This document shows positions 683 through 16,055 of a DNA stretch of 25,512 nucleotides, in pieces; position 1 is the stretch's first letter, and every line of letters begins with the position of its first letter. A program made the position numbers and the translations under genes. The notes below the pieces were generated by a model. The model ran no database searches. It had not been told where the DNA came from and saw only the letters and a program-made list of their open reading frames with translations. This stretch comes from a virus. The DNA lies in the IMG/VR virus record IMGVR_UViG_3300030406_002256, positions 1 through 25,512 of that record. One strand, 5' to 3'.

Positions 683-3600
683 TTAAAAAATTCTCTCTCT
701 TTTTCCTGTTGTCGACGTTTTCTTTTTCTTTTTCTTTTTGTCTTTATTATCATCAATACCTATTTCCCAGTCTTGCCAACCACCTAATAAAGCTAGTCTT
801 TCCCATGTTTCTAAATCATCTGATGTAGCGTTTACAACATTGTTTGTTTTCTTAACTAATCTATCAAGTGGTAAATTAGTTGTTGCTGATATAACATTTG
901 CGCCTGCTAATAATGCTGGGTTATCTATAGAAAAACCTTTTTCCATCATTTCTTCCTTTTCCCATTGTAACGATCTAGCAGCTTGATTTATCTTTGATAG
1001 CTTAGATGATACAGGTGGTGATATTCTAGTTAGTTCATAACCTATTTTTTCATACTTTGGATTAGGTTTTTCTGACTCGTTCATTATTCTTATTATAGCG
1101 TTTTTACCTACTGATACAAACGCACCAGCAATACCAACACCTCTTAATAATGAATCAGCCATACCATTTGCAATGTTTTGATACTTTTCTTGTTCATCTT
1201 CTTCTTCAACATCACCAAAGCTAATTGCAAATATAGCTTGTTGCAATGCGTTAAATATTAAGTTTTGTACAGCTGCGTAATAAATTATTTTAGAAGTATT
1301 AGTTTTCCAGTCACCTCTTCTATTTTTAAGATCTGAAGCAGCTTTCTTTATTAATCTAGCATACTGCATTGGTGTATTACCAAATGCTAGTATTATTCTA
1401 CCTAATGGTCCAGCTTGTTGAGCAGATATTCTATCAGGTCTACTAGACTGCTGTGACTCTTCAGCTATTTCTCTAAAATCTTTCATAGCTTGTATCTCTG
1501 CGGCTTTTTGGTCTAGACCTTGTTTCTTTAATCTATTTATTCTATTTCTGTAAAAACTTGCACCACCTGAAGCAATAGCAAAACTATCAGCTATTTGTGT
1601 AGGTAAAAATCCAAATTCTAATAATTTACTTATAACACCTCTTGGACCACCTTCTCTTGCCATGTTAGCAATATCTGCTTCATTAACGTTTATTTGTAAA
1701 CCTCTACGTCTATCAACTAAAAACTCAGAGTTCATTAATGTCATAAAGTCTTTCCAATACTGTGGTTGATTAGCAAAAGCTTTACCAGCAGCGAATATAT
1801 TATTATCTTTAAAATTAATAAAGTTAACAGAAGATATTGTTTGTAGTAACGCAGATCTTGTGTTAAAGAACATAATAGTACCAATACTATTAGTTAACCA
1901 GTCTGTTACTTTACCAGTTAATGAATCACCTTGGAAACTTCTGTTTCTACCAGTTCTCATACGTTCAAGTATACCTTCTAAAGCTTGTCTATGTGCTAAG
2001 CCAAACGCAGCTTCCATTTTATTTAAATTCTTTTCAGAGAATATAACATCTACATTTCTTTGCCACTCTGCTAAATGTTTAGCTCTTTTTGTAGTACCTA
2101 AGTTATCCATTAAATCAGTAGTGACAGTACCTGCTAACCAACTGCTTTTTGGAGCAGAATAACCATCATCTTTATTGATAGCTATTAACTGATCACCAAA
2201 AGCTTTATAAACAGGTTTACTTTCAACATGATCTGTTAATAATTTTAAATCAGCTTTACTCAACCCAGGTATTGGCATACCTTGCTTGTTCCATATATAA
2301 ACTCTTACAGCTTGCTCGTTTGTATAAGGTTCACCTGGTATTTTCTTTTGTAAGTTTTTAGGTACTACTTCTAGTTGATTCTTCAACGCTTTGTAATCAT
2401 TCATCAAAGATGTACGCTCTCTTGATATATTACCCATAGCTGTCGCATACGGATCTAATAAATTCTTTTTATACCAAGCCATTTGGTTATCACCAAGTTT
2501 ACCTTTAGCTAACGTATTGTAAAGTAATCCTACAAAATCTTCAGCTGATGGCGGTATAAAAAATGTAAATCTACCTTTGCTTGATCCAACTGCTTTTGCT
2601 TTTGCTTTGCTATACACTTTGTCTGCTCCAATACCTGTTTTAGCTTCTATAATATCGTTAAAGTCTCTATCTAGCTTTTGTATTCTACTTTCGTATGCTA
2701 ATCTTGATTTAGATTTTACATCTAATACTTCAAGCGCGTCTTGTACAGCTTTAACATTTTTATATACATCATCAGTAAAATAAAAATCATTATAACCGTT
2801 AGCTGCTTTACCAATAACCCAGTTTGCTTTTGCTTGTGGTGATCCGTCTTCTAAACCAGTTATATTTTCTAACGGTACTTCTAATCCTATACCTTTTAAA
2901 AAGTCGTATATAGCTTGCGCAGATGCTTGTGGTCTAGCTGTTAATACATATACGTCTTTATTACCAAACTTATCTATAGCTTTTTTAAGCTTAGCAGCTA
3001 ATGGTCCAGGTTTACCACCAATAACTTTATTAAACTCACTAAAATCAAATTCAGCACCTTGTTGTTCTAGTTTACTATGTTGTTTAGCAAATTCAGCTGG
3101 TGTTATTTTTTTAGTTTTTCCATCTATAGTTACTATTATTTTACTTTTGCTAGTAGCTAACGTATCGTCAAAATCAAACACACTAATACCTTTTTTAGGA
3201 GCATTTAAATTTTTAGCGTTACGCAATGCTTTATCGTAGTTATTTAAATCATTTACTAAACCATCGTTGTTTGTTGATTTACTGTATTTAGTTTGATTTT
3301 TTACAAAAGCTTTAGATTTACTAGTTTCTATGTTTTGGTTTGTAGCAAAACCTTTAGCATCAATACCAAACTCTTGTACTATATTATTACCATTTGCTAA
3401 AATAATGTTTGAAGGATCTATGCTGTTTACATTTTCATTAAAATATCTAGCCCATATATTATCTGTTAATTTCCAACCTTCAGGTGTGTTTTCCTTATAG
3501 TTATAAGGCTTACCGTTTGGTTTAAAACCTACTAAAGCATCGTCGTTTATTTTAGGTAAAGCACCTTGAAAATAATTTTTACTTATATTACCAAAGTCTT

Positions 3601-6600
3601 GATCTATTGTACCACCCGCAGCACTAGTAAATAAATACTTAGCTGTTATACTAGCTGGCAACGTGTGTTCTTGTACTATTTTGCCAAAAGTATTTTTTGC
3701 GTAAAATCTTACAGGTGCAGAAGTTCTAATAAAATGACCTTGAAAAGATCCTGTTGATTGTAACATTGCACCTACAAACCTAGCATTAGCTTTGTCATCA
3801 GCTATCATTTTTTCAAAAGCTTTAAATATCTTTTTTAAACCTCTAATACTTGCTTCTTGGTCTTGATTAAATTTATCTGTATTTAGCTTCTTTTCTATAT
3901 TAGTGTAATCTTCTTTTTTAATAGCAGCTTCAATATCAGCATCAGGTTTAGCATAAGTTTCAACGCTACTTAAATTATCCTTAACTTCTTGAGCTTTTAA
4001 AAAAGCATAATTACCTTTGTAAGTTCTAGTTCCATCAGGTAGTTTTGTAGTAGTACCAGTAAAAGTTCCAGTTGATTTTTTTAAAAAACTTTCAGGTAAG
4101 TATTTTGGTGCTATAGTTGATAAAAAATTTCTATATTCTTGTCTACCTTCTGGTGTTTTCATGTTTAGAGCATTAACACCTTTAGGTAAAACAGCTTCAA
4201 TTATTTTAATCCAGTTTTTATTTTCTGCGGCAAACTCAGTCGGGTTTTTCTTAAATGACTGATCTTTCATAAATACATTAAAAGCATTTTTTATTCTTTT
4301 ACTGTATACAACTCTAGTTTTTTGTGCAGCTGTTATATTAGCCGTTTGCTTTTTAACTGCTGCAGGATCTTTAGCTGTTTTAGTTTGACCTTCTAAAACT
4401 CTTTGTGCTGATGATAAACTAGCTTGTTGTGCGTATGTTTTAGCTACACCTTTTAATAACTGACCAATATCTCTATTATAGTTATTTAGTTGACCTGGTG
4501 GTGTAATACCTAAATCATCTTTTAGTTTGTTTATTGTCTCTACAGTTGGGTTTCTAAACTCAGGTTTTAATTCCCATATAGTTGGTTGTGATGTTAAACC
4601 TTTTGATCTTCTATTTGTTTTGTTGTAAAAATAATTAAGTACTTTACCTTTCATACCTATAGATAAACCACTTACATTTCTATCAACATCTATGTTTTCA
4701 CCTAATTCATTAATATCAGCGTCTGTTTCACTAACGTTTTCTTCAGGTAATAGTTTTATAAACTTATCAGCGTTTTGACCAACTCTAAAAAACTCCTGTA
4801 TATTACCAGCTTCAGAGTTTTCAGGTATACCATCTGTTATTTTCTTAGCGTATGTTAAGTTCTTTGTGCCATCTGTTATTTTATTAGCTGGTATGTTAAA
4901 TATTTTACTACCTATTTCACCAGTATTATTATTTATAACTTCTTTAAATGTATCACCTTCTTTTACTTTTACAGCTTTAACTAGATCAGCTTCATTTACT
5001 TTATCTAACTTTAATACATTGAGTTTACGTGACACTCTTGCTTGTGTTGTTGGTGTTTCTGTTTGTGCATCAGCTATTTGTTTAGTAGACTGATCTATTC
5101 TAGTTTCTACAGCTCTTCTAGCTGACTCTATAGCTAGTTCTTTATTAGCATCTAACTTAGCAAAATTAGTATTAGCAAAAACAAACTCACCAAACGTTTT
5201 ATTAAACGCTGGATCAAAGTTCATTAATCTACTTTGTATATTTCTTATAGTAGCGTTAGCTTGCTCAACACTAGTTGATCTAGATTTAACATAGTTACTT
5301 ATAACACCGTTTGGCTCTGTAGCAGCAAAAGCATCACCAAATACTTTAGGATCAGACTGAAACTGCTCTTTAGTTTTTATATTGCTAGGTATAATATTAT
5401 TAATAGCATCTAACGCGCTTTTTGATTCTCTTATTTGAGTTGTTTGATCTGCTTGTGTGTCAGATATTAGAGCACCTGTAGCAGCTTCTTGTGTTAGTTT
5501 TGTTTGCGCTTTTGTTAACTGACCTTTTACAATACTATTATTATAATCTTTTATAAAATTAAATACATCTCTTGAAGTATTAAACTTTATATCAGACAAA
5601 CCTGCTTGCTGTAATATTCTTCTAACTATATCACCTATTTTAGTAAATACAGTTTCGTTATATTTAATTTCACCGTTAGCTACAGCGTCAGCAAACAATG
5701 TTAACGTTTCTTCAGCTTGTATCGCTGTTGGATCGTTTTTATAAGCATCTAGTCTATTTTTAAAATCACTGTCTTTTAATATATCAGTATCTATTTTGTT
5801 TATTTCAACTTTAAGTGCTTCTGATAAAACTTCAGCTGCTTCTGGGTTTTTACCAACAGTATTAAATAAAACACCGTGTAATAACTCATGAGCAGCTACA
5901 TTTACTGCTGCATCTTCTGCAGCGATCTCTTTATTTATAACGATTGTTTGTTCACCTGATTCAAGGTCTTGAAGTATAAATCCTTGTTGTGACGATGCTT
6001 TCTTTTCTAGGTTTTTGTCTTTAGCAATTTTATCTGCAGCATCTTGATTTTCTGCTATTTCTATATTTATTTTATCAAGTCCACTAACTATGTCAGTAAC
6101 TTTTTCTGTTGTAAGATTTAATTGATTATCAGAACTTATTTTAGCTAGTCTAGCATCAACTTCTTTTAATCTATTTATTTCAGCATCGACTATAGCTTTA
6201 TTAGCACCAGCTAATTCTATTTTACCAGCTAAAGCGTTTCTTTCTTTTAATAACGTTACAGTTTCTTGTATTAAATCTTTGCCAATGTTTAGGTTATCAG
6301 CTAACGTTACAGCTGATTGTGTATCGCTAAAGTTCTTTTTTATTCTATCACGCTCTTCTACAGTCATTTCTCCATTGTTTACTTTTGACTGTAATTCAGA
6401 TTCTAAAACCATGCCAGAGTTTTGATTTCTAGCTATATCTATTACATCTTGATTTATATTGTCATTTAAAAAAGCAGAGTTAACATCATTTACATTTGTG
6501 TTATCTAATGTTTTTCTTACACTTTTTCTTTTAACACCAATACCTATTTCACCACCAGCTCTAAGTTTACCACCAACGGCACCACCTATAAGTATATTGT

Positions 6601-7600
6601 CTAGTATTTCATAATCATCAAATACTGAATTAAACACTTCGTCAAAAGTATTAGCATCACCTATGTAAACAGCTCTAGCTGCTTTACTTATAGCAGCTGA
6701 CGTACCTTCAGATAAACCTTCTTTACCGTAGTCTTTACCTATTCTTAAAAATATATCTCTTAATCTTCTTTCTACAACTTCCGTGCCTTGACCTTTTAAG
6801 TTTTTAAATACACTTTTACCAATACCTCTAGTTACTGTTTCTAAAGCACCTTCTGCCATACCAACAGTACTAGAATATATTAAATTATTAAGATCAACTT
6901 TTTTACCTTCTTTTATTGCTTCTGTACTTGATTGCGCAGCGCTACCACCTATTACTGATGGTATACCTACACCAGGGACCATTGCTTGTAAAACAGACGG
7001 TATAGCGCCAACAAACTCAGATATTGTTCTTGACGCAGCTTCGGGTACCGCTGTTATATCACCTTTAGCCGCTGCTATATAAGCTTCTGATAAAGATTTT
7101 TCATATTGAGGTAAAGACTCGTTTAATTTATCAATTTCACCTTGTAAATTTTCAGATAAATCTAGTCCTTCTTGACCAAATCTAGTAATACTTTGAGCTC
7201 CAGGAGCACCAATAGACATTGCAGCTTCATACTTTTGTATAAACTCGTCTTGTTTTTCAGGGTCTAAGCTATTGTAATATTTTTTTAATTTATTATCATC
7301 AGGTAAACGCTCCATACGAGCAACAAATTTACCTCTGTTTATAAATGCTGGTAGTTGACTCAATGAACTTCCAACTTGTAATACTCCTCTTCCAAATTTT
7401 TTAGCTAAATTAATTGGATTTATTTCTTCAAAAAAACTACCCTCTTCTTCTTGCATATCACTACCTATTCTATCAACCTTTACTTCGGTTAAACCTTTTT
7501 CTCGCAATTTACTTACAAGCTCATCAAATGATAAGTTTGCTTTGTCTGCGGCTAACTGTAATTGTTCGTTTGTGAACTGCTTACCGTTAAATTCCCACAT
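683..7600 (-). CDS. Giant multidomain DNA-ejection (internal virion) protein with zincin and HAD-like domains
   Basis: This 2305-residue protein is the last of three probable ejection genes, in the place of T7 gp16 (about 1318 residues). Residues 1-360 are helical with Gly/Ala-rich hydrophobic stretches (about 195-225 and 335-350) that could insert in membranes. A metallopeptidase signature HELLH lies at 571-575, with E630/E631 as a possible third zinc ligand. A long region (about 700-1460) is not recognised. A HAD-type phosphohydrolase domain spans about 1470-1640: DFDD at 1476-1479 (nucleophile and acid/base positions), T1554 in VLTARP (motif II) and D1610/D1611 in FTDDV (motif IV). The C-terminal third has hydrophobic and amphipathic segments, and the end is a seven-lysine run. 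I see no lytic transglycosylase motif. Domain make-up resembles the large polyvalent proteins of phages. ATG follows the previous stop by 2 bp (TAATTATG). Injection into the host and both activities are inferred. Confidence 0.72.
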   Translation of the reverse strand: MWEFNGKQFTNEQLQLAADKANLSFDELVSKLREKGLTEVKVDRIGSDMQEEEGSFFEEINPINLAKKFGRGVLQVGSSLSQLPAFINRGKFVARMERLPDDNKLKKYYNSLDPEKQDEFIQKYEAAMSIGAPGAQSITRFGQEGLDLSENLQGEIDKLNESLPQYEKSLSEAYIAAAKGDITAVPEAASRTISEFVGAIPSVLQAMVPGVGIPSVIGGSAAQSSTEAIKEGKKVDLNNLIYSSTVGMAEGALETVTRGIGKSVFKNLKGQGTEVVERRLRDIFLRIGKDYGKEGLSEGTSAAISKAARAVYIGDANTFDEVFNSVFDDYEILDNILIGGAVGGKLRAGGEIGIGVKRKSVRKTLDNTNVNDVNSAFLNDNINQDVIDIARNQNSGMVLESELQSKVNNGEMTVEERDRIKKNFSDTQSAVTLADNLNIGKDLIQETVTLLKERNALAGKIELAGANKAIVDAEINRLKEVDARLAKISSDNQLNLTTEKVTDIVSGLDKINIEIAENQDAADKIAKDKNLEKKASSQQGFILQDLESGEQTIVINKEIAAEDAAVNVAAHELLHGVLFNTVGKNPEAAEVLSEALKVEINKIDTDILKDSDFKNRLDAYKNDPTAIQAEETLTLFADAVANGEIKYNETVFTKIGDIVRRILQQAGLSDIKFNTSRDVFNFIKDYNNSIVKGQLTKAQTKLTQEAATGALISDTQADQTTQIRESKSALDAINNIIPSNIKTKEQFQSDPKVFGDAFAATEPNGVISNYVKSRSTSVEQANATIRNIQSRLMNFDPAFNKTFGEFVFANTNFAKLDANKELAIESARRAVETRIDQSTKQIADAQTETPTTQARVSRKLNVLKLDKVNEADLVKAVKVKEGDTFKEVINNNTGEIGSKIFNIPANKITDGTKNLTYAKKITDGIPENSEAGNIQEFFRVGQNADKFIKLLPEENVSETDADINELGENIDVDRNVSGLSIGMKGKVLNYFYNKTNRRSKGLTSQPTIWELKPEFRNPTVETINKLKDDLGITPPGQLNNYNRDIGQLLKGVAKTYAQQASLSSAQRVLEGQTKTAKDPAAVKKQTANITAAQKTRVVYSKRIKNAFNVFMKDQSFKKNPTEFAAENKNWIKIIEAVLPKGVNALNMKTPEGRQEYRNFLSTIAPKYLPESFLKKSTGTFTGTTTKLPDGTRTYKGNYAFLKAQEVKDNLSSVETYAKPDADIEAAIKKEDYTNIEKKLNTDKFNQDQEASIRGLKKIFKAFEKMIADDKANARFVGAMLQSTGSFQGHFIRTSAPVRFYAKNTFGKIVQEHTLPASITAKYLFTSAAGGTIDQDFGNISKNYFQGALPKINDDALVGFKPNGKPYNYKENTPEGWKLTDNIWARYFNENVNSIDPSNIILANGNNIVQEFGIDAKGFATNQNIETSKSKAFVKNQTKYSKSTNNDGLVNDLNNYDKALRNAKNLNAPKKGISVFDFDDTLATSKSKIIVTIDGKTKKITPAEFAKQHSKLEQQGAEFDFSEFNKVIGGKPGPLAAKLKKAIDKFGNKDVYVLTARPQASAQAIYDFLKGIGLEVPLENITGLEDGSPQAKANWVIGKAANGYNDFYFTDDVYKNVKAVQDALEVLDVKSKSRLAYESRIQKLDRDFNDIIEAKTGIGADKVYSKAKAKAVGSSKGRFTFFIPPSAEDFVGLLYNTLAKGKLGDNQMAWYKKNLLDPYATAMGNISRERTSLMNDYKALKNQLEVVPKNLQKKIPGEPYTNEQAVRVYIWNKQGMPIPGLSKADLKLLTDHVESKPVYKAFGDQLIAINKDDGYSAPKSSWLAGTVTTDLMDNLGTTKRAKHLAEWQRNVDVIFSEKNLNKMEAAFGLAHRQALEGILERMRTGRNRSFQGDSLTGKVTDWLTNSIGTIMFFNTRSALLQTISSVNFINFKDNNIFAAGKAFANQPQYWKDFMTLMNSEFLVDRRRGLQINVNEADIANMAREGGPRGVISKLLEFGFLPTQIADSFAIASGGASFYRNRINRLKKQGLDQKAAEIQAMKDFREIAEESQQSSRPDRISAQQAGPLGRIILAFGNTPMQYARLIKKAASDLKNRRGDWKTNTSKIIYYAAVQNLIFNALQQAIFAISFGDVEEEDEQEKYQNIANGMADSLLRGVGIAGAFVSVGKNAIIRIMNESEKPNPKYEKIGYELTRISPPVSSKLSKINQAARSLQWEKEEMMEKGFSIDNPALLAGANVISATTNLPLDRLVKKTNNVVNATSDDLETWERLALLGGWQDWEIGIDDNKDKKKKKKKTSTTGKRERIF

Positions 7601-7602
7601 AA

Positions 7603-9621
7603 TTAATCAATTGAATTTATAAGCTCGTCTACTGGGTCTGTTTCTGTTGAAGTGTTTGAACCACCGCCAAAGTTAAAATCAAACGCCTCAACATCAGGTT
7701 CGTTACCATCCATAAAACTTCTCATTATTTCTTTTACCATAGATATTTTACTAGGCGTTGTAATACCATATGTTAAAACACTCACAAGTGTATTAAATCC
7801 ATACTCAGAACCTTTACCTTGAATGTAATTACCTTTTTCATCTTTTTCTAACATTGGTATAGCCTTTGGTAACTTATCTCTAACAGGATCAACATCTTTA
7901 CCATACTCAATATTAAATACTTTATCTACAGGATCAAACTGTATTGTCTTTACGTGAGGTAAGTATTGAGATAAATCAGGGTACTCTATAAAAGTATCTC
8001 TTTGTTTATATTTTCTATACTGATCAAGAATTATTTGTTCTTCCTTGTTTAATTCTTCTTTATTTTTAGCCTTTTGTATAACATTATTTATATAGTCCTC
8101 AGGTGTTTGATCACCTAATAGTCCAAGTGTTACAACTTTTGTAAGTGACCATCTTTTTTCTCTACCACTATCAGCTTGAGCAAAAAGAGTAGAATCTAAT
8201 TTTTTAATATCTTCTATATCTTCTTCTGTTACCTCTTGAAGTTGATCGATAGGTGTATTTTTATTTAACTTATCATGTGGTTTAAAACCTTCTAAGTATA
8301 TAGCTTTTAATTCATTATAAAGACCTTTGTCTACATCTTTACCGCTACTTAATTTAATAGTGCCATCAGCTGTGTCATCATCATCTTCTTCAGGTGCGGT
8401 TTCTCTTCTGTACTTACTAGTTAAACCATCACTATATATTTCATCATATAGTTTTTCAGCAACCATTTCGTTTTTAAGATCATTTAATCCTTTAATAGTT
8501 GCTGGAATATCTTCTTTTTTTATACCTAACTTTAATAATAAAGATCTATTTAAAGTAGTATCGTTATGTTTTGTTTCTAACAAATCAGCTACAATTTCTT
8601 TTTTTACAACATCATCATCTTCTTCATCTACAAATGTTACTAAAGTTTTTAGAAAAGAATTTTTAGCTCCAAACTTAGTAAGCATGTTAAACCTTTTAGC
8701 TGTTCCAAAATCAACACTATTGTTAAATATGTCTGTAATCATTGTTTCGTCACTACCATCACCCTTAACAACGTTTACATATTCTCTTACATCATTTTTT
8801 AAAAAATCTTCAGGTGTTATAGCAAATCCTTTAGAGTTTCTAGGCACATTACCATCTGCATATATTTGATTCATTCTACTTGTATACTCACCTTTTAAAC
8901 TTTCTAATACACCGTCTTTACCACTGTAAGCCTCATCATATCTAGCTTTAAGCTGTGGATTATTATTGCCTATATATGTAGCCAACATCTTAGAATCAAC
9001 ATCGATATATTTTTTAGACGGATCATCACCTTCACGCCACTTTGGATTTTCTATTCTAATGTTCATGTCAAAGTCATTAGTACCTGTTTTTGAAAATTTA
9101 AACTGCTCTGGATTTTCTAAGTTTCCTTTAAAACCATTTCTAGCAGCTTGAACAACAGCTGCAAATTCTAAATATGTATCAGAGCTTTTGTTTAAACCAC
9201 CTTTTTCATCTAAGTCATTTAACATGCCAAATAGAGCATTTAAAGGCTGTGCTGCAGCTGTAAAATTTTGCGCAGCTAAATCTAAATCTGTTTTAGATCT
9301 TCTTTCTTGATCAAGATTTTTAGCAAAAAATCCTAGGCTATCTTTATCACCAGTGTCAACTCTTGTTGCTTCGTCATAAAATTGATTTACTGTTTTTAAT
9401 ATTTCAGCTTGAGTGCCAGCTGCTAAATCTTTTAAATTAGCAATATTTTGTTTCATTAAATCAGATCTTACTTGAACATCTGATTCATATTCTTTTTGCT
9501 CTGCTTCTATTTTGTCATAAAAGTCTTGTGCGCCTTTATACGCATCTTTAAAAGCAGCTTGAAAGCTTCTGTTTATTAACGTGTAATCTTCTTTGTAAAA
9601 TCTTGGATTTCTATAACTCAT
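7603..9621 (-). CDS. Probable internal virion / DNA-ejection protein (T7 gp15 position)
   Basis: The product is 672 residues, close to T7 gp15 (747) and in the same relative place between a smaller and a giant ejection protein. I recognise no enzymatic motif. The first 120 residues are charged and strongly helical, rich in Lys, Asp, Glu and Gln, and probably coiled coil. The middle has acidic runs (EEDDDD near 410). The last 40 residues are acidic with a Gly/Ser/Thr linker and end in DELINSID. There is no signal peptide or obvious membrane segment, as expected for a protein packed inside the capsid or built into an ejection tube. It lies 2 bp from each neighbour, so the three genes are probably translated from one mRNA and possibly coupled. 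The role rests on position, size and composition, not on a recognised domain; a tail-associated structural role is the alternative. Confidence 0.6.
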   Translation of the reverse strand: MSYRNPRFYKEDYTLINRSFQAAFKDAYKGAQDFYDKIEAEQKEYESDVQVRSDLMKQNIANLKDLAAGTQAEILKTVNQFYDEATRVDTGDKDSLGFFAKNLDQERRSKTDLDLAAQNFTAAAQPLNALFGMLNDLDEKGGLNKSSDTYLEFAAVVQAARNGFKGNLENPEQFKFSKTGTNDFDMNIRIENPKWREGDDPSKKYIDVDSKMLATYIGNNNPQLKARYDEAYSGKDGVLESLKGEYTSRMNQIYADGNVPRNSKGFAITPEDFLKNDVREYVNVVKGDGSDETMITDIFNNSVDFGTAKRFNMLTKFGAKNSFLKTLVTFVDEEDDDVVKKEIVADLLETKHNDTTLNRSLLLKLGIKKEDIPATIKGLNDLKNEMVAEKLYDEIYSDGLTSKYRRETAPEEDDDDTADGTIKLSSGKDVDKGLYNELKAIYLEGFKPHDKLNKNTPIDQLQEVTEEDIEDIKKLDSTLFAQADSGREKRWSLTKVVTLGLLGDQTPEDYINNVIQKAKNKEELNKEEQIILDQYRKYKQRDTFIEYPDLSQYLPHVKTIQFDPVDKVFNIEYGKDVDPVRDKLPKAIPMLEKDEKGNYIQGKGSEYGFNTLVSVLTYGITTPSKISMVKEIMRSFMDGNEPDVEAFDFNFGGGSNTSTETDPVDELINSID

Positions 9622-9623
9622 AA

Positions 9624-10616
9624 TTATATTTGTTTAAACTCTACGTCTAGTTGTGAGTAATCTACTAAATCGAAACCATCTATATCTTTTTTAACAGCTG
9701 ATTGTGGTATTTCATCAGACATTACACCTTGATAAGTTTTATTTCCGTTTATGTATTTAAATGAATATATTTTTAAACCACTAGGTGAAAGTTTTAAAAA
9801 CTTAATATCTTTTTTAAGTCGTCTATCACTAAAAAATGATGTTCTTCCCGATGTGTTAGTACCAACATTACCAGGGTCAAAACCTAAATCAACTTGAGTG
9901 CTAGTTAAATCAGGTGTTGTGTTACCACCTAAACCAAATGCCTTAGCTAATGATCCTTTACCACCAACTAAACCACCTAATGCAATACCACCTAAACTAC
10001 CTAATGCACTAGCAAAACCAGCTTGAGAAGCTTCTCTAGCTTGCATCATTTGAGCTCTAGATTGATCTAATAACGCAGCTGCTCTATCTTCATCTCTAAA
10101 CTGCCTAGCTTCTCTCATTTGCTGCGTAAATGATCTACCTCTTATTTTTAAAGCATCTGCTTGAGCTCCTATTTGTGCTCTTGCTACTTCAGCTTTTGCT
10201 TGACCTTGAGCTCTTAATACTTGATTTTGTATTTCTTGTTTTTCAATACTAGCACCAATATCTCTTTTACTTCTTAATGCAGCTTGTGCTAAAGCTGTAG
10301 CTCCACCTGCACCAGCACCTGTAGCTCTAAGAGTATCTAATGTATTTGCTAAAGCTACATCAGCTTCTTCTGCTTGAAACTCTGCAGCTTGTGTTGCAAC
10401 ACCGATATTTGCAAACGGGTTTGTTATATCACCAGATCTATCTCTAGCTAAAGCACCAAGATCGCTTAAATCTTGTCTTTGTCTTTTTAAGTTATTGAAA
10501 GCTTGTTCAGCTTTTCTATATCTTCTCTGTGCTGCTCTAGCCTTGTCTTTAGCGCCGAAACCTTGTATTAAGCCACCTACTATATTAGTAGCAGCTCCTA
10601 TTAAAGCCATGCTCAT
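9624..10616 (-). CDS. Small ejection-type virion protein with C-terminal S74 self-cleaving chaperone domain
   Basis: The product is 330 residues. Residues 1-25 form a hydrophobic Gly/Ala segment. Residues 25-205 are an almost continuous Ala/Gln/Arg-rich helix, and residues 205-225 are a second Gly/Ala/Leu segment. This layout is typical of T7 gp14- or P22 gp7-like ejection proteins. After a flexible linker, residues 263-330 match the intramolecular chaperone (Peptidase_S74) pattern: SDRRLKKDI, then a YSFKY strand, GVMSDEI and a final V-Y-Q-L segment. S263 and K268 are spaced like the Ser-Lys pair described for the endosialidase tailspike chaperone. If active, the protein would cut before S263 and leave about 262 residues in the virion. 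ATG at 10614-10616 is taken; a second in-frame ATG two codons later is possible. The S74 match is strong; the ejection role is inferred from position and composition. Confidence 0.75.
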   Translation of the reverse strand: MSMALIGAATNIVGGLIQGFGAKDKARAAQRRYRKAEQAFNNLKRQRQDLSDLGALARDRSGDITNPFANIGVATQAAEFQAEEADVALANTLDTLRATGAGAGGATALAQAALRSKRDIGASIEKQEIQNQVLRAQGQAKAEVARAQIGAQADALKIRGRSFTQQMREARQFRDEDRAAALLDQSRAQMMQAREASQAGFASALGSLGGIALGGLVGGKGSLAKAFGLGGNTTPDLTSTQVDLGFDPGNVGTNTSGRTSFFSDRRLKKDIKFLKLSPSGLKIYSFKYINGNKTYQGVMSDEIPQSAVKKDIDGFDLVDYSQLDVEFKQI

Positions 10617-10631
10617 ATTATAATAATTTTA

Positions 10632-11972
10632 TTAAACAGTAACTTCTCCATTAACTGAAAATAATTCAGCTTTTGAAGCATTGGAACTTTCTTCAGGTTC
10701 CCAGTACTGCATTGTTATGTTTGAAAAATATCCTTTTAAACCAGATGTTTGAAAGAAACTATTGTCTTGATAAAAGTCAGTTGCTTTGTTTCTTAATTCA
10801 CTGTAGTAGAAGTTTTCTTTTTTAATAAATCCTACAGTTTCACCTGTTCCTATTGTTGTACCTTCTTTAGGTATTTCATATGCTGTGTTTACGTCATCAT
10901 AGCTACCCGTAGCTCCGTAAACAGCGTAACCACCTGTTGAGAAATTAGTCATACCCCAACCAGTAGTTCCTTCGTAATCAAGAGTTAAAAACGTTTTAAC
11001 TCGTGATGGCTCCATGTTAAATAAAAACTTAACATATGATGGATCGTTATATGTTGCATCGTAAAAATTAGCTCTTGCTGTATCTTCATCATGCTGTCTA
11101 TATAAGTTTGATAAATAATATGTATAAAACTCATTTTTTAAACTTACACCGTGTGTTGCTTTATATGTGTAAAAACTAACCCAACCACCAGCTCTTTCAT
11201 CAAAAGACAATGTTCCGTAAGTTGTTATATCAGCTGTCGCTGTTAAACTACTTGCTGATAAACCACCATCAATATCAGTTCCTTCTAAGGTTATAACATA
11301 TTGTTTCTTTTGTTCATCAAACGCTCCATATATAGTATCACACACTTTTAGGTTATCTTTAAACCAGTCTTTCATGCCAGCATCTGATATAGGAGTTATA
11401 CCATCTGTTGATAATCTACATATAACACCTCTTTGTTTATCTGCAAAGTATTTTCTGTTACCAAAGTATGCAAAACTTTCAGGGTTTGTGCCAATACCAT
11501 ACTTACCAGCGTAAGGTGTTATTTGACCTATAACATTAGCACCTGATGCTGTTATTGGTTGTCCTTCAGCTGTAAATATAGCGTCTTTATCTATTAACGC
11601 TCTATTAACTTTGTTTTCTTGAAATATATTTAAATTAGTATCTTCAGCATGTAGTTTTTGTATACTACCATTATTTATATCAACAGCTCTTGTTATTGAC
11701 TGTCCTGATGGAAACTGGTTTAACTCATTAACAGTTGTTCTATCATTAAATATACCACTATGTATCATAGCGTTTTTTCTTACTTTACTTTTGTATTCTT
11801 CGTCTGTTATATGAGCTTTTGCACCAATATCCATAGCAACACCATTATACTCACCTTTTATCCTATTTTCTTCAATATGATACCTACCTGGCGCTTCGGT
11901 TGTTCCGTTTCCGCTTCTACCACCTTGTATTATTATGGCGTTTGAAAATGCTAATTCTATTACTGCTCCCAT
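10632..11972 (-). CDS. Tail structural protein, stabilization/tube-B-like
   Basis: The product is 446 residues and predominantly beta. I see no enzyme motif. The central part (about 150-235) has features I associate with beta-propeller-like tail and stabilization proteins of Bacteroidota phages: IGTNPESFAYFG, then RGVICRLSTDGITPIS, GMKDWF and YGAFDEQKKQYVITL. Such segments are often found in the same polypeptide as the N-terminal part encoded by the upstream gene at 11982-16055. The two genes are in the same frame, separated by TAA-AAT-TAA-AAC before this ATG, so they may be halves of an ancestral single protein. The C-terminal region (about 385-446) is also beta-rich. It probably sits at the tail tip or nozzle. 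A receptor-binding role cannot be excluded, because no obvious separate tail fibre is encoded in the window. Confidence 0.55.
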   Translation of the reverse strand: MGAVIELAFSNAIIIQGGRSGNGTTEAPGRYHIEENRIKGEYNGVAMDIGAKAHITDEEYKSKVRKNAMIHSGIFNDRTTVNELNQFPSGQSITRAVDINNGSIQKLHAEDTNLNIFQENKVNRALIDKDAIFTAEGQPITASGANVIGQITPYAGKYGIGTNPESFAYFGNRKYFADKQRGVICRLSTDGITPISDAGMKDWFKDNLKVCDTIYGAFDEQKKQYVITLEGTDIDGGLSASSLTATADITTYGTLSFDERAGGWVSFYTYKATHGVSLKNEFYTYYLSNLYRQHDEDTARANFYDATYNDPSYVKFLFNMEPSRVKTFLTLDYEGTTGWGMTNFSTGGYAVYGATGSYDDVNTAYEIPKEGTTIGTGETVGFIKKENFYYSELRNKATDFYQDNSFFQTSGLKGYFSNITMQYWEPEESSNASKAELFSVNGEVTV

Positions 11973-11981
11973 GTTTTAATT

Positions 11982-14900
11982 TTATGCTATTGGACAATCA
12001 TATGTACTCGCTGCTACAACACCACTTGTTACAGCGTGTCTAGGATTTAGACCAGAAACTGTAAATGTTCCTGTTGCTACAGCGTTATTTAATAATTTAT
12101 CTGAATATATTATATTACCAGCGTTTACACCACCACTTTGACTAGGTGTTGAACCACTACCATTTTTAACATAGTAAGTTGTAGCTGGTTGACTATATTT
12201 TATACTACAAGCATCTCCTGTAGAGTGATGACCATCTATAGCTGTTGATACTCTTGAAAATATCGTAAATGTTGCTGCGTTTGTTAAACCTCCATTATCT
12301 GTAAATGTTACAGTTATTTGTTTACTAGCAGCTGGTGTAGAACCAAAGAAACCTGCAAATGTAAATGTATTACTTGTTCTTATTCTAAACGTACCGGCTG
12401 TACCAGGTATTTCAGCTATAGTAAACATACTAGCATTAGTTCCACTTAACGCGGCTGTCATACCAGTTTGATTTAATGCTGAGTTAGCAGATCCATTAAC
12501 AGCTGATATATTACCTACTGTATAACTGCCTTTACCACCACCACTATTATAAGTACTTTGATTATCTATAAATCCGTTAGCGTTAGTTCCAACTGGATTG
12601 CTATTTGTTACACTAACTGTAATATCTTGTAATGATGAAGCGTTGTTACTTTGTATCGCTCTAATTTTAATTTCAAAATCATCTGAGCTATTATTGTTAA
12701 AAGCAAACTGATGTCCTACTTTCAACATGTATCTTGGATCAATATTACCTGATGCTCCAGCTTGTTCGTTGGTTATAGCTACTATATTATGACTAGCATC
12801 TACTTGAACAACAACTTGTCTTTGAGTAGCTATGTTTGTTGAGTGATTATCATAAAACCATATTTTATAAAAACCAGCGCCAGTGTTTGCTATTGAGCTT
12901 ATTGCCGATGCTTCAGCTATTGGTGAAATAATAGATACGTCTTCTGAAGATATTGCTAGTAACTCTGTGTGCTTAAATCTAACTAATGTTCCAGTGCTTG
13001 TTAAATCAACAGCATTAGCAGCGCTTGCTGTAGACTGTTTAGCAGAGTGTTTAACTACTGTAATATCATCTTCTTGATCAATAGCAAATTTACCTGTATC
13101 AATACCATCGGTACCATCGTTATTAGTAACAGCCATAATCTGAAAGTTAGATATACTTCCTGAATCTGGTGTTGCTGTTAATTCACCTATTTGTTTTTGT
13201 AATTTACTATTATTTGAGTAATCAAACTCTTCTGGAAAATTAGCTGTTAAAGCTGCTGAATAACTTTCTTTTACAGCTGTATTTGTTATTCTTATATTTG
13301 TTGGACCAGAAGACGCAGCGTCACACTGATCATTTAAATCAGCTACTAAACCACACGTTGCTGTTTCGTAGTATATATCTAAATTTGACTCAAAAGGTTT
13401 TGTTTCAAAAACAGTTAAACCTTTATCTTTTGTGTTTGGGTAACCAAATGGTGAATCACTTTGTAAATTATCAGCTGATCTAAGAACAGCCATTGTGCCG
13501 TCATTACTTTGAAATTCACCCCTTACGTTTACTTTTTCATTATCTAGGTTTGGTATTTCAGCTACTGTTGGATTTTTTTCAAAGTCTTGTATAAACGCAT
13601 ACACTCTATCTTTATCTTGTAAGTTTCTGGGTACTAAAGCACCGTCAGCATAAGGACCATTTTTAGCATTTGACTTACTAAATAAACCTTGTGACTTAGC
13701 ATCGCCAATACTCATAACATCAATATACTCTTGACCATCAACACCCATTTTAGAGTTAAAAGAAGATCCAATATTATCATTTATTTGTACAACTTTAGGA
13801 TATAATTGCACTTCTGAACCAGCTACACCATCTTTAAACTCATCAATATCTTTTACAGATCTAGGTACTTTGTTTATATTGTCACCTGTTAAACTAAACC
13901 ATGATCTTGACAATGATGTTGTATCATATTTACCAGCAATAACTTGATCTTGATCATCAGCATGGCCATTTGGATTTGTTGTTACACTATGACCATCAAT
14001 TGTCCAGTTGTTCATTGGGTGAGCTGTATAAACATTATAGTAGTCTTGCTCTGTTTGTTTTATTACAACTTTCCAAGAGTACCAACCTATTGGACTACTA
14101 GTTGAGTGTGTTTTATTTGTGTCTACCACTCTTGAATCTTGAAAATCTATATTTAAAGCTTTACCGTATGTTTTAAATGTATTTTCCCAGCTACCATCTG
14201 TGTTATTCTCGTATGAATCAGTTTCTGCTACTACCGTATGCGTGTCAGATAAATCATCAGTTTTGTAAGTTGATGGTATTACAGGTGACATTCTACCATA
14301 CTTGTCACATAATACTACACCTGCTTGATATGTTCTTCTTTGTTTTACAGTATGAAACCTGTGTGATTGTGTATTATAATACAAATGACCTGATGTAATA
14401 CCTTTTTCAATATTACCTTTGTTGTCACTAGATATAAAGAAACTTATACCTTTATTACCAGCTTCATCGTTTGGTATATCATAACCAGATGTTATGTTTC
14501 CGTAAACTATTCTATTACCAACTATTTCTTGAGCTTTTGCTCTAACAGGAACATCATCAGAAACTCTTATTAATTGTTTTTCCGGTAAAACTTTAAATGG
14601 TTCTTTTGCTTTATATGTGTACTCTATAGCTGTTCTATAATAAGTAGTACCAGTTTTTGGTGTTACTGTATAATTACTAAAAGGCGTTGTTGATTCATTG
14701 TTAGCAGCGGTTATATCTATACTATCTACTAATTTAAGTGCTATACCATTTGACTCTTTTAATAATATTTCTACTTCTTTTATTCTTAAACCTTTATCAT
14801 TATTGTAACCATTGTTTACTACATCAACATTACCACTATCAGTTTCAAACTCTGTGGCAACAAATTCATCTGTTATACTTGGTAAAGGTATACGCATAAT

Positions 14901-16055
14901 AACTTTATCATAAGCGTTTTGCATTATAGGAACAATACCTCTCTCAACAACATCTTGTGAAGATACAGATACTACTGGCTCAAATGTAAAAGCAGAAGCA
15001 TTTGTGCCTTGATTAAATTGTAGTGTACCAGCATTTAAAGGTTTAAATACAGGTTGCGTAAACGGTGATATTATAGAATATGTACCGTCCATGTACTTAT
15101 ATCTATATGCAAATCTAATAAATCTTTCTTGCATGTAGTCAGATTTAACACCTGTAGCAGATGTTGGATCTGATGTAATTAATGTTTGACCATCAGCTGT
15201 GTTAGGATAATCATTTAATTTTATTGTAGCGTTACCACCACCACCTGTTATTGTTATTACATCATTTACGCTATAACCATAACCTATGTCATCTGCAGAT
15301 ATTGTAACTGTTGTTACAGCACCAGCGTTAACAGCTGTTATGTTTACCTTTAAACCAGTACCTGTTCCACCTGTAGTTACAATATCATTACCTGTAGAAT
15401 AACCGCTACCCGCTGCAGTTATTGTAAAACCACTATTTGCTCCTTGAGATAAAGCAATAGTGTTTGGCTTATTTAACATCGGTGCTAAATATGGTGCTAC
15501 TTTTGCAACTGATATTTTTTCTTCTTGACCGTAAGTAGTATAATAGGTTGTATCGTTTCTAGCTAAATCTACATCTATAACTCTTGGTTGATTGTAGTTG
15601 TCTGTAAAATATAAATAATTACCTATAGTGTTTACACCTGTAATATGATGTGTAGTTGAAAAATTTAAGTACAAACCTGAAGCTAAAACTTCTTCAGCGT
15701 TGTTACCTTCTTTCATTATAACTTTACAAATATCATTACCACTAGCTTTTTGCATTTGCTTAATATCAGCATTTGGTGAATTACTAGTAAATGAAGTTAC
15801 AAACCAAAATATTCTATCATTAGATACATCTACATAAGATCCTATAGTAACAATAGAATTACCATCACTATCAGTTGTAGCTTGTGAAGTTACTTTTTTG
15901 TTACCTCTAATATTTTCAATAGCACCAACGTCTGAATCTTCACTTGTAGCTATAGATATATTTTGAGCTTCTCTGTATTCACCACCTGGGACAAGCCTCT
16001 CGTCCAGGTCTTTATTCATACGAGCTTTAGTAAAAATATTTTTTATCTTCGGCAT
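11982..16055 (-). CDS. Large tail tube / stabilization protein with added surface domains
   Basis: The product is 1357 residues, much longer than T7 gp12 (794), its positional equivalent. The N-terminus (NKDLDERLVPGGEYREA, about 14-30, then SEDSDVGAIENI) is the type I associate with large stabilization proteins of crAss-like phages. Conserved-looking core segments follow at about 300-335 (RFAYRYKYMDGTYS), 470-525 and 570-600 (YQAGVVLCDKYGRMSPVIPS). Two additions interrupt or extend this core. One is a Gly-rich tandem repeat at about 200-288. The other is a C-terminal region from about 1090, with a cadherin- or Ig-like stretch (about 1200-1270) and a final module holding YYVKNGSG, NIIYSD and two cysteines (DACS and YDCP). 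The end resembles small modules of Bacteroidota surface proteins and phage adhesins. It probably forms the tail nozzle and may contact the cell surface. Core assignment is moderate; the receptor role is inference. Confidence 0.65.
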   Translation of the reverse strand: MPKIKNIFTKARMNKDLDERLVPGGEYREAQNISIATSEDSDVGAIENIRGNKKVTSQATTDSDGNSIVTIGSYVDVSNDRIFWFVTSFTSNSPNADIKQMQKASGNDICKVIMKEGNNAEEVLASGLYLNFSTTHHITGVNTIGNYLYFTDNYNQPRVIDVDLARNDTTYYTTYGQEEKISVAKVAPYLAPMLNKPNTIALSQGANSGFTITAAGSGYSTGNDIVTTGGTGTGLKVNITAVNAGAVTTVTISADDIGYGYSVNDVITITGGGGNATIKLNDYPNTADGQTLITSDPTSATGVKSDYMQERFIRFAYRYKYMDGTYSIISPFTQPVFKPLNAGTLQFNQGTNASAFTFEPVVSVSSQDVVERGIVPIMQNAYDKVIMRIPLPSITDEFVATEFETDSGNVDVVNNGYNNDKGLRIKEVEILLKESNGIALKLVDSIDITAANNESTTPFSNYTVTPKTGTTYYRTAIEYTYKAKEPFKVLPEKQLIRVSDDVPVRAKAQEIVGNRIVYGNITSGYDIPNDEAGNKGISFFISSDNKGNIEKGITSGHLYYNTQSHRFHTVKQRRTYQAGVVLCDKYGRMSPVIPSTYKTDDLSDTHTVVAETDSYENNTDGSWENTFKTYGKALNIDFQDSRVVDTNKTHSTSSPIGWYSWKVVIKQTEQDYYNVYTAHPMNNWTIDGHSVTTNPNGHADDQDQVIAGKYDTTSLSRSWFSLTGDNINKVPRSVKDIDEFKDGVAGSEVQLYPKVVQINDNIGSSFNSKMGVDGQEYIDVMSIGDAKSQGLFSKSNAKNGPYADGALVPRNLQDKDRVYAFIQDFEKNPTVAEIPNLDNEKVNVRGEFQSNDGTMAVLRSADNLQSDSPFGYPNTKDKGLTVFETKPFESNLDIYYETATCGLVADLNDQCDAASSGPTNIRITNTAVKESYSAALTANFPEEFDYSNNSKLQKQIGELTATPDSGSISNFQIMAVTNNDGTDGIDTGKFAIDQEDDITVVKHSAKQSTASAANAVDLTSTGTLVRFKHTELLAISSEDVSIISPIAEASAISSIANTGAGFYKIWFYDNHSTNIATQRQVVVQVDASHNIVAITNEQAGASGNIDPRYMLKVGHQFAFNNNSSDDFEIKIRAIQSNNASSLQDITVSVTNSNPVGTNANGFIDNQSTYNSGGGKGSYTVGNISAVNGSANSALNQTGMTAALSGTNASMFTIAEIPGTAGTFRIRTSNTFTFAGFFGSTPAASKQITVTFTDNGGLTNAATFTIFSRVSTAIDGHHSTGDACSIKYSQPATTYYVKNGSGSTPSQSGGVNAGNIIYSDKLLNNAVATGTFTVSGLNPRHAVTSGVVAASTYDCPIA
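15192..15458 (-). repeat. Tandem Gly-rich protein repeat inside tail protein gene
   Basis: Two copies of a beta-type repeat are encoded 42 residues apart. GSGYSTGNDIVTTGGTG starts at residue 216 and GYGYSVNDVITITGGGG starts at residue 258. Each is followed by a stretch of alternating Val/Ile/Thr. The pair interrupts the presumed core between PYLAPMLNKP and the RFAYRYKYMDG segment. Similar GSGY repeats occur in neck and tail proteins of other phages. The residue boundaries are approximate. Confidence 0.6.

Follow-up and report, generated by a model that had tools for sequence, protein, structure and literature searches.

A zincin-type domain and a HAD phosphatase domain paired in a giant, probably ejected protein of an uncultured podovirus clade

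The DNA analyzed here (the window) is the 25,512-base virus record IMGVR_UViG_3300030406_002256, positions 1 to 25,512, and the gene under study is an open reading frame (ORF) that encodes a protein of 2305 residues, referred to below as the giant protein. A zincin-type metallopeptidase domain and a HAD phosphatase domain are joined in this protein, and this arrangement is the norm across a large uncultured clade. Synteny supports the good inference that the protein is probably packaged in the virion and ejected as a 'polyvalent' cargo protein. The joint reading, an ejected cargo protein with a self-processing zincin and a Pnkp-like polynucleotide phosphatase, is held with slightly better than even confidence. 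Zincins in injected phage proteins are already known; the HAD partner appears to be new. A first-pass annotation of the window had placed the protein at 683-7600, with HELLH at 571-575 and glutamates nearby and with HAD motifs at DFDD 1476, T1554, and DD 1610. These positions and the length were right, the ORF runs from an ATG on the minus strand, and two further invariant residues, E631 and K1591, were added. The observation is confirmed, and the interpretation attached to it is partly supported.

The only D-x-D-x-[TV] motif in the giant protein is DFDDT at 1476-1480. Homologs were collected with the whole protein as query (40 ORF pieces from 39 contigs, 38 covering the HAD domain and 36 the zincin domain), and all HAD motifs were intact in the 32 HAD-bearing ORFs of this query-based set; all four were also invariant in alignment A3 (30 rows). 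For a wider count, rows of more than 230 residues, which hold kinase inserts, and rows with scores under 150 were set aside, which left 115 rows and 105 distinct sequences; the D, D, and T of motif I were found in 104 of 104 and the T-A-R, K, and D-D of the other motifs in 105 of 105. A model of residues 1440-2305 was predicted with a mean pLDDT of 65.6, about 85 over the HAD domain and often below 50 in the last third. When the HAD part was compared using VIA-align, in which rows no more than 1 Z apart count as tied, the top row was 5uj0 (T4 Pnkp 3'-phosphatase, Z 12.7, 128 aligned, 2.6 A), followed by 4xru (12.2), 1ltq (12.1), 8a0m (11.8, not a Pnkp), and 2ia5 (11.6), with Pnkp phosphatases in rows 1, 2, 3, and 5. 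The 50 listed matches had Z values of 9.4-12.7 and, judged by their names, are HAD-type. The predicted structure shows a HAD fold, with its active-site motifs, in residues 1465-1640.

With respect to sub-family, phrog_415 ('polynucleotide kinase') matched 26 of 30 members at E <=0.1 (best 5.1e-9), and its match to the window protein (4.7e-4) spans the HAD domain. A Hafnia phage polynucleotide kinase/phosphatase was among the BFVD matches (E 0.029), and the Pfam HAD family matched 5 of the 30 members at E 1. Judged by profiles and predicted fold, a polynucleotide phosphatase appears a better match for the domain than a phosphatase of nucleotides or proteins in general, and Pnkp-like is the leading, not settled, assignment.

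HELLH is the single HExxH motif of the giant protein, and H571, E572, H575, and E631 are kept in 36 of 36 homologous ORFs covering the zincin domain. The same four residues and Y620 are the invariant columns of alignment A1, whose 34 rows exclude the near-copies L003, L011, and L016, and all 85 zincin-profile hits contain HExxH. An AlphaFold2 model of residues 430-760 (pLDDT 83.2, pTM 0.82) has the topology of a zincin, in which three strands (511-516, 540-544, and 551-556) lie ahead of the HExxH helix (568-577) and are followed by the E631 helix (625-641). Among the 50 VIA-align matches listed, 11 align at least 160 residues, all of them lethal factor or Certhrax (Z 5.2-6.2); the others are short matches to N-terminal helices with Z up to 7.8. 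Because few of the long rows lie in the catalytic end of lethal factor, the zincin call rests on topology and invariant ligands, and residues 505-665 are assigned a predicted zincin fold with modest fold-search support. Structure prediction, suggested in the first pass, showed the HAD fold and, for the zincin, the topology. The zincin of N4 was likewise matched to lethal factor by Iyer et al. (passages of PMC5512222).

Viral contigs were scanned with the HAD alignment, by which at least 543 relatives were confirmed and the best 80 kept, and 137 loci were compared (some contigs are in twice, one is the window's own, and two are named phages). Sorted by profile hits, 74 ORFs had all three domains (zincin, HAD, and C-terminal), 43 the HAD and C-terminal domains, 12 the C-terminal domain only, 7 zincin and C-terminal domain, 3 zincin and HAD, 1 zincin, and 1 HAD; a number of the partial architectures are cut by contig ends. 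An HExxH motif lies upstream of the HAD domain in 28 of 32 ORFs that have no zincin-profile hit (at least 2000 residues, HAD and C-terminal domain present), and in 91 of 95 distinct ORFs whose HAD domain starts past residue 1200, where 0.7 would be expected from shuffling of the first 1400 residues. The HAD domain is followed by the C-terminal domain after a gap of 5-11 residues in 114 of 117 ORFs; in one of the 117 (L133) the motif check failed and the HAD domain is broken. Since the later loci were fetched by HAD, they are uninformative on its frequency; in the query-based set, 32 of 38 covering ORFs have the domain with all motifs. In 30 contigs searched, the HAD domain was found in 24, always in the giant gene, and nowhere outside it. 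A tree of the C-terminal domain (114 rows, 9 labelled HAD-less) implies at least 5 changes of HAD state, as a quick tree without a mixture model, with a long-branch warning and with a kinase label pattern that misses L039. The pairing, which the first pass found worth study in one ejection protein, is not special to this protein and is the rule in the clade. In contig L026 (14461), the giant gene is split between two frames, and an assembly error and a real break are indistinguishable there.

The giant gene is the final gene of the virion block. Its position had been compared with that of T7 gp16, which is only roughly right: its genes mark a crass/Pervagovirus-like block, in which the giant gene stands where crAss001 has gp47. 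The order in crAss001 is muzzle gp44, cargo gp45, gp46, and then gp47 (2341 aa), and passages of PMC10172136 name gp45, gp46, gp47, gp49, and gp50 among the proteins that mass spectrometry identified in virions. Since the giant protein occupies the slot of gp47, and gp47 is found in virions, it is probably an ejected cargo protein. The two resemble each other in their place after the muzzle and two smaller cargo genes, in length, and in the possession of one HExxH; unlike the giant protein, gp47 (NC_049977) has this motif near the C-terminus (HEAFH at 2157) and has no DxDxT-type motif.

Same-slot proteins of named relatives were compared in a nine-sequence search with filters off. The N-terminus of the giant protein is shared with Maribacter phage Panino and with gp101 of Cellulophaga phage phi38:1 (2.3e-23 and 3.8e-11), whereas for elemo gp18 and MW202828 the N-terminal similarity is seen per domain only (1.3e-5 and 3.2e-4; whole-sequence E 9). 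The zincin is shared by gp18 of Flavobacterium phage elemo (profile 1e-8), annotated 'structural protein', and the MW202828 protein has two HExxH motifs and a per-domain zincin score of 0.0013; the Panino and phi38:1 proteins lack HExxH. Panino, phi38:1, and elemo showed no HAD motif, and none of them gave a hit to the C-terminal domain (whole-sequence E 0.2 at best); the HAD profile scored weakly in Panino (whole E 0.0016, best domain 0.022), which has no DxDxT. At E 1e-5, the only named-phage relative in a whole-protein search was Panino, over residues 100-330. The phi38:1 protein owes its annotation 'structural protein' to similarity with phi18:1 gp101, and no virion proteomics of elemo phages was found in the passages of PMC7077304 consulted. 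The Panino protein (L041 19812-25301) is annotated 'tRNA methyltransferase', and elemo gp18 (L160 15719-26803, 3694 aa) has a DUF3293 domain (1e-12) in addition to the shared zincin.

Seven ORFs on six contigs carry a P-loop kinase module (L026 and L069 belong to the same contig), and each of the seven also has the HAD domain. In L030 the module matches Zeta_toxin (4.7e-12) and AAA_33 (4.8e-13), and Pfam leaves the module unseparated from zeta toxin; its profile was aligned with the T4 PseT kinase over residues 2-145 (14.7 bits). The module lies within the HAD domain in L027, L039, L044, and L052, and between zincin and HAD in L030 and L026/L069; in L027 and L039 the insertion site is between motif I and a conserved LxAxEFA stretch. 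Modules at the two placements are 76-80% identical (L030 and L044, 76%), as if one module family had moved between two sites. Genes for a minimal ATP-dependent DNA ligase were found in 4 of the 30 contigs. It is on the rank of the HAD fold, the kinase partner, and these DNA ligases that a role in healing nucleic-acid ends is proposed. A tRNA-repair setting was considered and rejected, with RNA ligase PF09414 in 0 of 30 contigs and tRNA genes absent from the window and from the 13 relative loci examined; the absence of PF09414 argues mildly against RNA repair, and many of the contigs may be fragments, so gene absences are weak evidence. The 'minor head protein' of Cyanophage PSS2 (GQ334450, 18959-19324) matches the kinase part of the L039 query (6e-4) and, from this similarity, is perhaps another virion protein with this kinase. 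In passages of a paper on jumbo phages (PMC7824862), Pnk-HAD repair phosphatases and injected polyvalent proteins are described separately.

In the favored mechanism, the N-terminus, common to same-slot proteins of cultured relatives, would serve packaging and membrane passage, and the zincin would cut its own polyprotein, in the head or after entry, and free the parts. The HAD domain would be an active phosphatase of the aspartyl-phosphate type, most likely a polynucleotide 3'-end phosphatase like that of T4 Pnkp, delivered along with the genome for the healing of nucleic-acid ends, and the C-terminal domain, coupled to HAD, may dock or package the unit. Self-processing is the favored role of the zincin. 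A further step, offered tentatively as possible rather than probable, is that a widespread aquatic clade injects an end-healing phosphatase in a self-cleaving cargo and so repairs 3'-blocked breaks from the start of infection, in phage DNA or in host RNA that defense nucleases have cleaved, some members with their own kinase.

Several results weigh against this reading. Six of the 38 covering ORFs of the query-based set (L028, L029, and L035-L038) lack the HAD domain, which is therefore dispensable. For the zincin, all VIA-align Z values are below 8, clear placement in the catalytic end of lethal factor (457-776) is seen for just 3 of the 11 long rows, several others fall in its N-terminal domain, which has a zincin-like fold without the motif, and Foldseek on the 430-760 model returned no zincin at E <1. 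With regard to the HAD sub-family, the non-Pnkp row 8a0m (11.8) is tied with the top of the VIA-align ranking, the best Foldseek match is a phosphoserine phosphatase (E 0.031, prob 1.00), DUF2608 matches 28 of 30 members at E 1, and phrog_1238 ('phosphoheptose isomerase') matches 19 of 30 at E 0.1. Comparison with T4-type Pnkp using hhalign was weak (38.7% and 43.0%, 29 columns each; 0.06% in global mode), and a sequence-profile search of the PDB gave nothing significant, with PNKP at 0.71 and 0.81 behind an unrelated entry at 0.47. As to repair, AAA_33 occurs in 3 of 30 contigs, always within the giant gene, most HAD-bearing members have no kinase, the window's protein has no kinase match, and PF09414, the one RNA-ligase family searched, is absent from all 30. 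Finally, no profile similarity was found between the giant protein and crAss001 gp47.

The best placed alternative, which we nevertheless regard as doubtful, is an attack on the host, in which the injected zincin cuts host (defense) proteins and the HAD domain dephosphorylates host nucleotides, signalling molecules, or proteins. An effector role is an accepted alternative for such peptidases (passages of PMC5512222), and HAD enzymes are diverse, with DUF2608, phosphoserine phosphatase, and acid phosphatase among the matches here. The zincin is, however, retained in every covering ORF of the query-based set, unlike an often-swapped effector, and both the fold ranking, with Pnkp phosphatases in four of its top five rows, and phrog_415 point elsewhere. 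The first-pass proposal of an ejected protease and phosphatase is supported by folds, ligands, motifs, and slot; the targets it gave as examples, host defense proteins or nucleotides, appear to suit the HAD domain less well than polynucleotides do. Catalysis during assembly, in which the zincin would trim scaffold or cargo inside the head and packaging would be the stage at which the HAD domain acts on DNA or proteins, is unlikely: P1 DdrB is processed before packaging and the C-terminal domain is tied to HAD, but the HExxH-containing N4 virion RNA polymerase goes into the particle unprocessed (both phage cases from passages of PMC5512222). A purely structural role in ejection or packing, with catalysis lost, would agree with the DNA-ejection channel formed by podovirus ejection proteins (passages of PMC12633501) and is very improbable, given the invariance of the catalytic residues in 105 distinct HAD domains and of HExxH in the zincin-profile hits.

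Among known systems, the polyvalent proteins (Iyer et al. 2017, PMC5512222) are like the giant protein in being multidomain, in having virion-gene neighbors, and in combining a zincin hub with a variable middle and a further enzyme; the giant protein follows this pattern, with several unrelated enzyme domains in one chain and a gene among virion genes. In passages of that paper, zincins are the domain found most often in phage polyvalent proteins, and the roles proposed for them are polypeptide processing before, in, or after packaging or action as an effector; the main text contains no word starting with 'phosphatase', 'haloacid', or 'HAD superfamily'. No Pfam polyvalent family matched the giant protein. 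In BFVD, the model of the C-terminal half came near polyvalent or ART-PolyVal models (1.5e-05, 6.3e-05, 1.5e-3, and weaker), with low TM scores and over low-confidence parts of the model; four uncultured-virus proteins match most of the model, one of them named UDP-N-acetylglucosamine kinase. The C1/C2 part of the N4 virion RNA polymerase is similar in being ejected and in having an HExxH domain beside a large helical C-terminal domain, and differs in having an RNA polymerase, while no HAD domain is mentioned for N4 in the passages used (PMC12633501). T4 Pnkp (PseT) is the best fold match of the HAD domain, has the same motif I, and also joins a P-loop kinase; unlike the giant protein, it has 301 aa, only weak sequence similarity, and its kinase in front rather than inserted in HAD. 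T4 Pnkp is made after infection. No description of a HAD domain in an injected, zincin-bearing phage protein was found in the open-license literature, searched as abstract openings and passages.

The coordinates of the features are collected in Table 1. In full-protein family scans nothing was significant (Pfam DUF5975 at 0.011, under the cut-off; PHROGs none). As the first pass had said, no lytic transglycosylase was seen: Pfam gave no such family, a scan that cannot exclude one. The N-terminal region is 31.7% identical to Panino gene 69 over 259 columns and includes a moderately hydrophobic stretch at about 193-218 (hydropathy 1.5 at best). Pfam at E 0.01, applied to 34 middle parts and to 34 and 24 N-terminal parts, gave the kinase and single weak hits only; LPD14 matched the N-terminal part of one relative (0.0012). 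The variable middle holds the P-loop kinase in L030 and L026 but not in the window. The pre-HAD region (1256-1440) has no family match; it reads QEHTLP in the window, and an E and an H are kept throughout 24 divergent relatives. The C-terminal domain is the most conserved long part of the protein (A2, 1440-2305), with low model confidence. In the HAD-less L028 (~1600-1644), L029, L037, and L038, a GDIV...VEVK stretch, similar to the motif of a PD-(D/E)xK nuclease, lies about 230 residues before the C-terminal domain. As a family feature of the middle such a nuclease was rejected (loose pattern in 36 of 117 ORFs, 32.3 expected); the candidate motif looks convincing only in this group.

Table 1. 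Features of the giant gene and neighboring virion genes in the window.
Feature	Position	Strand	Basis or remark
Giant ORF, probable virion cargo protein, 2305 aa	683..7600	-	slot of crAss001 gp47
N-terminal slot-conserved region, residues 100-345	6566..7303	-	similarity to Panino gene 69
Zincin-type metallopeptidase domain (predicted), residues 505-665	5606..6088	-	AlphaFold2 model, VIA-align rows
HELLH, zinc-binding and general-base motif, residues 571-575	5876..5890	-	invariant H571, E572, H575
Third zinc ligand E631, glutamate helix	5708..5710	-	invariant column, 36/36 ORFs
Conserved segment KFN..DVFNFIKDYN after zincin, residues 672-700	5501..5587	-	A1 columns >=90%
Variable middle, residues 736-1250	3851..5395	-	A4 (736-1458), 18% mean column identity
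Pre-HAD conserved region with EH motif, residues 1256-1440	3281..3835	-	alignments
HAD phosphatase domain (predicted), Pnkp-like, residues 1465-1640	2681..3208	-	model, VIA-align, phrog_415, DUF2608
HAD motif I, D1476-F-D1478-D-T1480	3161..3175	-	D, D, T 104/104
HAD motif II, T1554-A-R1556	2933..2941	-	105/105
HAD motif III, K1591	2828..2830	-	105/105
HAD motif IV, D1610-D1611	2768..2773	-	105/105
C-terminal helical domain, residues 1646-2290, directly behind HAD	731..2665	-	A2, 46% mean column identity
672-aa protein, positional counterpart of crAss001 gp46	7603..9621	-	gene order only
330-aa virion protein, weak S74-like C-terminus	9624..10616	-	phrog_6121 1.5e-13
Muzzle-like proteins, two ORFs (446 and 1357 aa)	10632..16055	-	crAss_MUZ_C, phrog_14478

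All large genes of the window are on the minus strand. The virion block starts with terminase, portal, a 116-aa protein, a 390-aa protein that is scaffold-like by position, and the major capsid protein, continues with proteins of 263, 262, and 368 aa and the muzzle-like proteins of 1357 and 446 aa, and ends with the 330-aa, 672-aa, and giant proteins, after which a 210-aa gene (3-632) is cut at the window edge; this last has, by eye, a signal-peptide-like start. The 446-aa protein matches crAss_MUZ_C (5.3e-07) and both muzzle-like ORFs match phrog_14478, as if one protein were divided over two neighboring ORFs; an ORF pair of the same sizes is present in the relative L005. Peptidase_S74 in the 330-aa protein (0.072) is under the family cut-off, and the 672-aa protein has no phage match at E 0.01. 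The nearest named portals are those of MW202828 (52.2%, an uncultured record), Panino (46.4%), and Elemovirus (42.5%); portals and capsids together give the order MW202828, Panino, Elemovirus, and then Cellulophaga phages. The virion genes have crAss_MUZ_C and PHROG matches that hint at Crassvirales, but their portals and capsids are nearest to those other phages, and the crAss RNA polymerase subunits gp49 and gp50 were not found in 10 contigs, possibly fragments (the gp50 query matched its own record as a control; the gp49 query had none). The lineage is most likely an uncultured podovirus group related to Pervagoviridae, Elemovirus, and Crassvirales. The cultured phages with the nearest portals infect Maribacter and Flavobacterium, and a Bacteroidota host is therefore likely.

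The pairing of protease and phosphatase is a stable design of probable virion cargo in a large uncultured group rather than an accidental fusion, and through it a very large phage protein without a name in the family libraries gains a function that can be tested. If the HAD domain heals polynucleotide ends, repair enzymes would arrive in the particle, ahead of any gene expression, and the encounter of injected cargo with host nucleases could be viewed in a new way.

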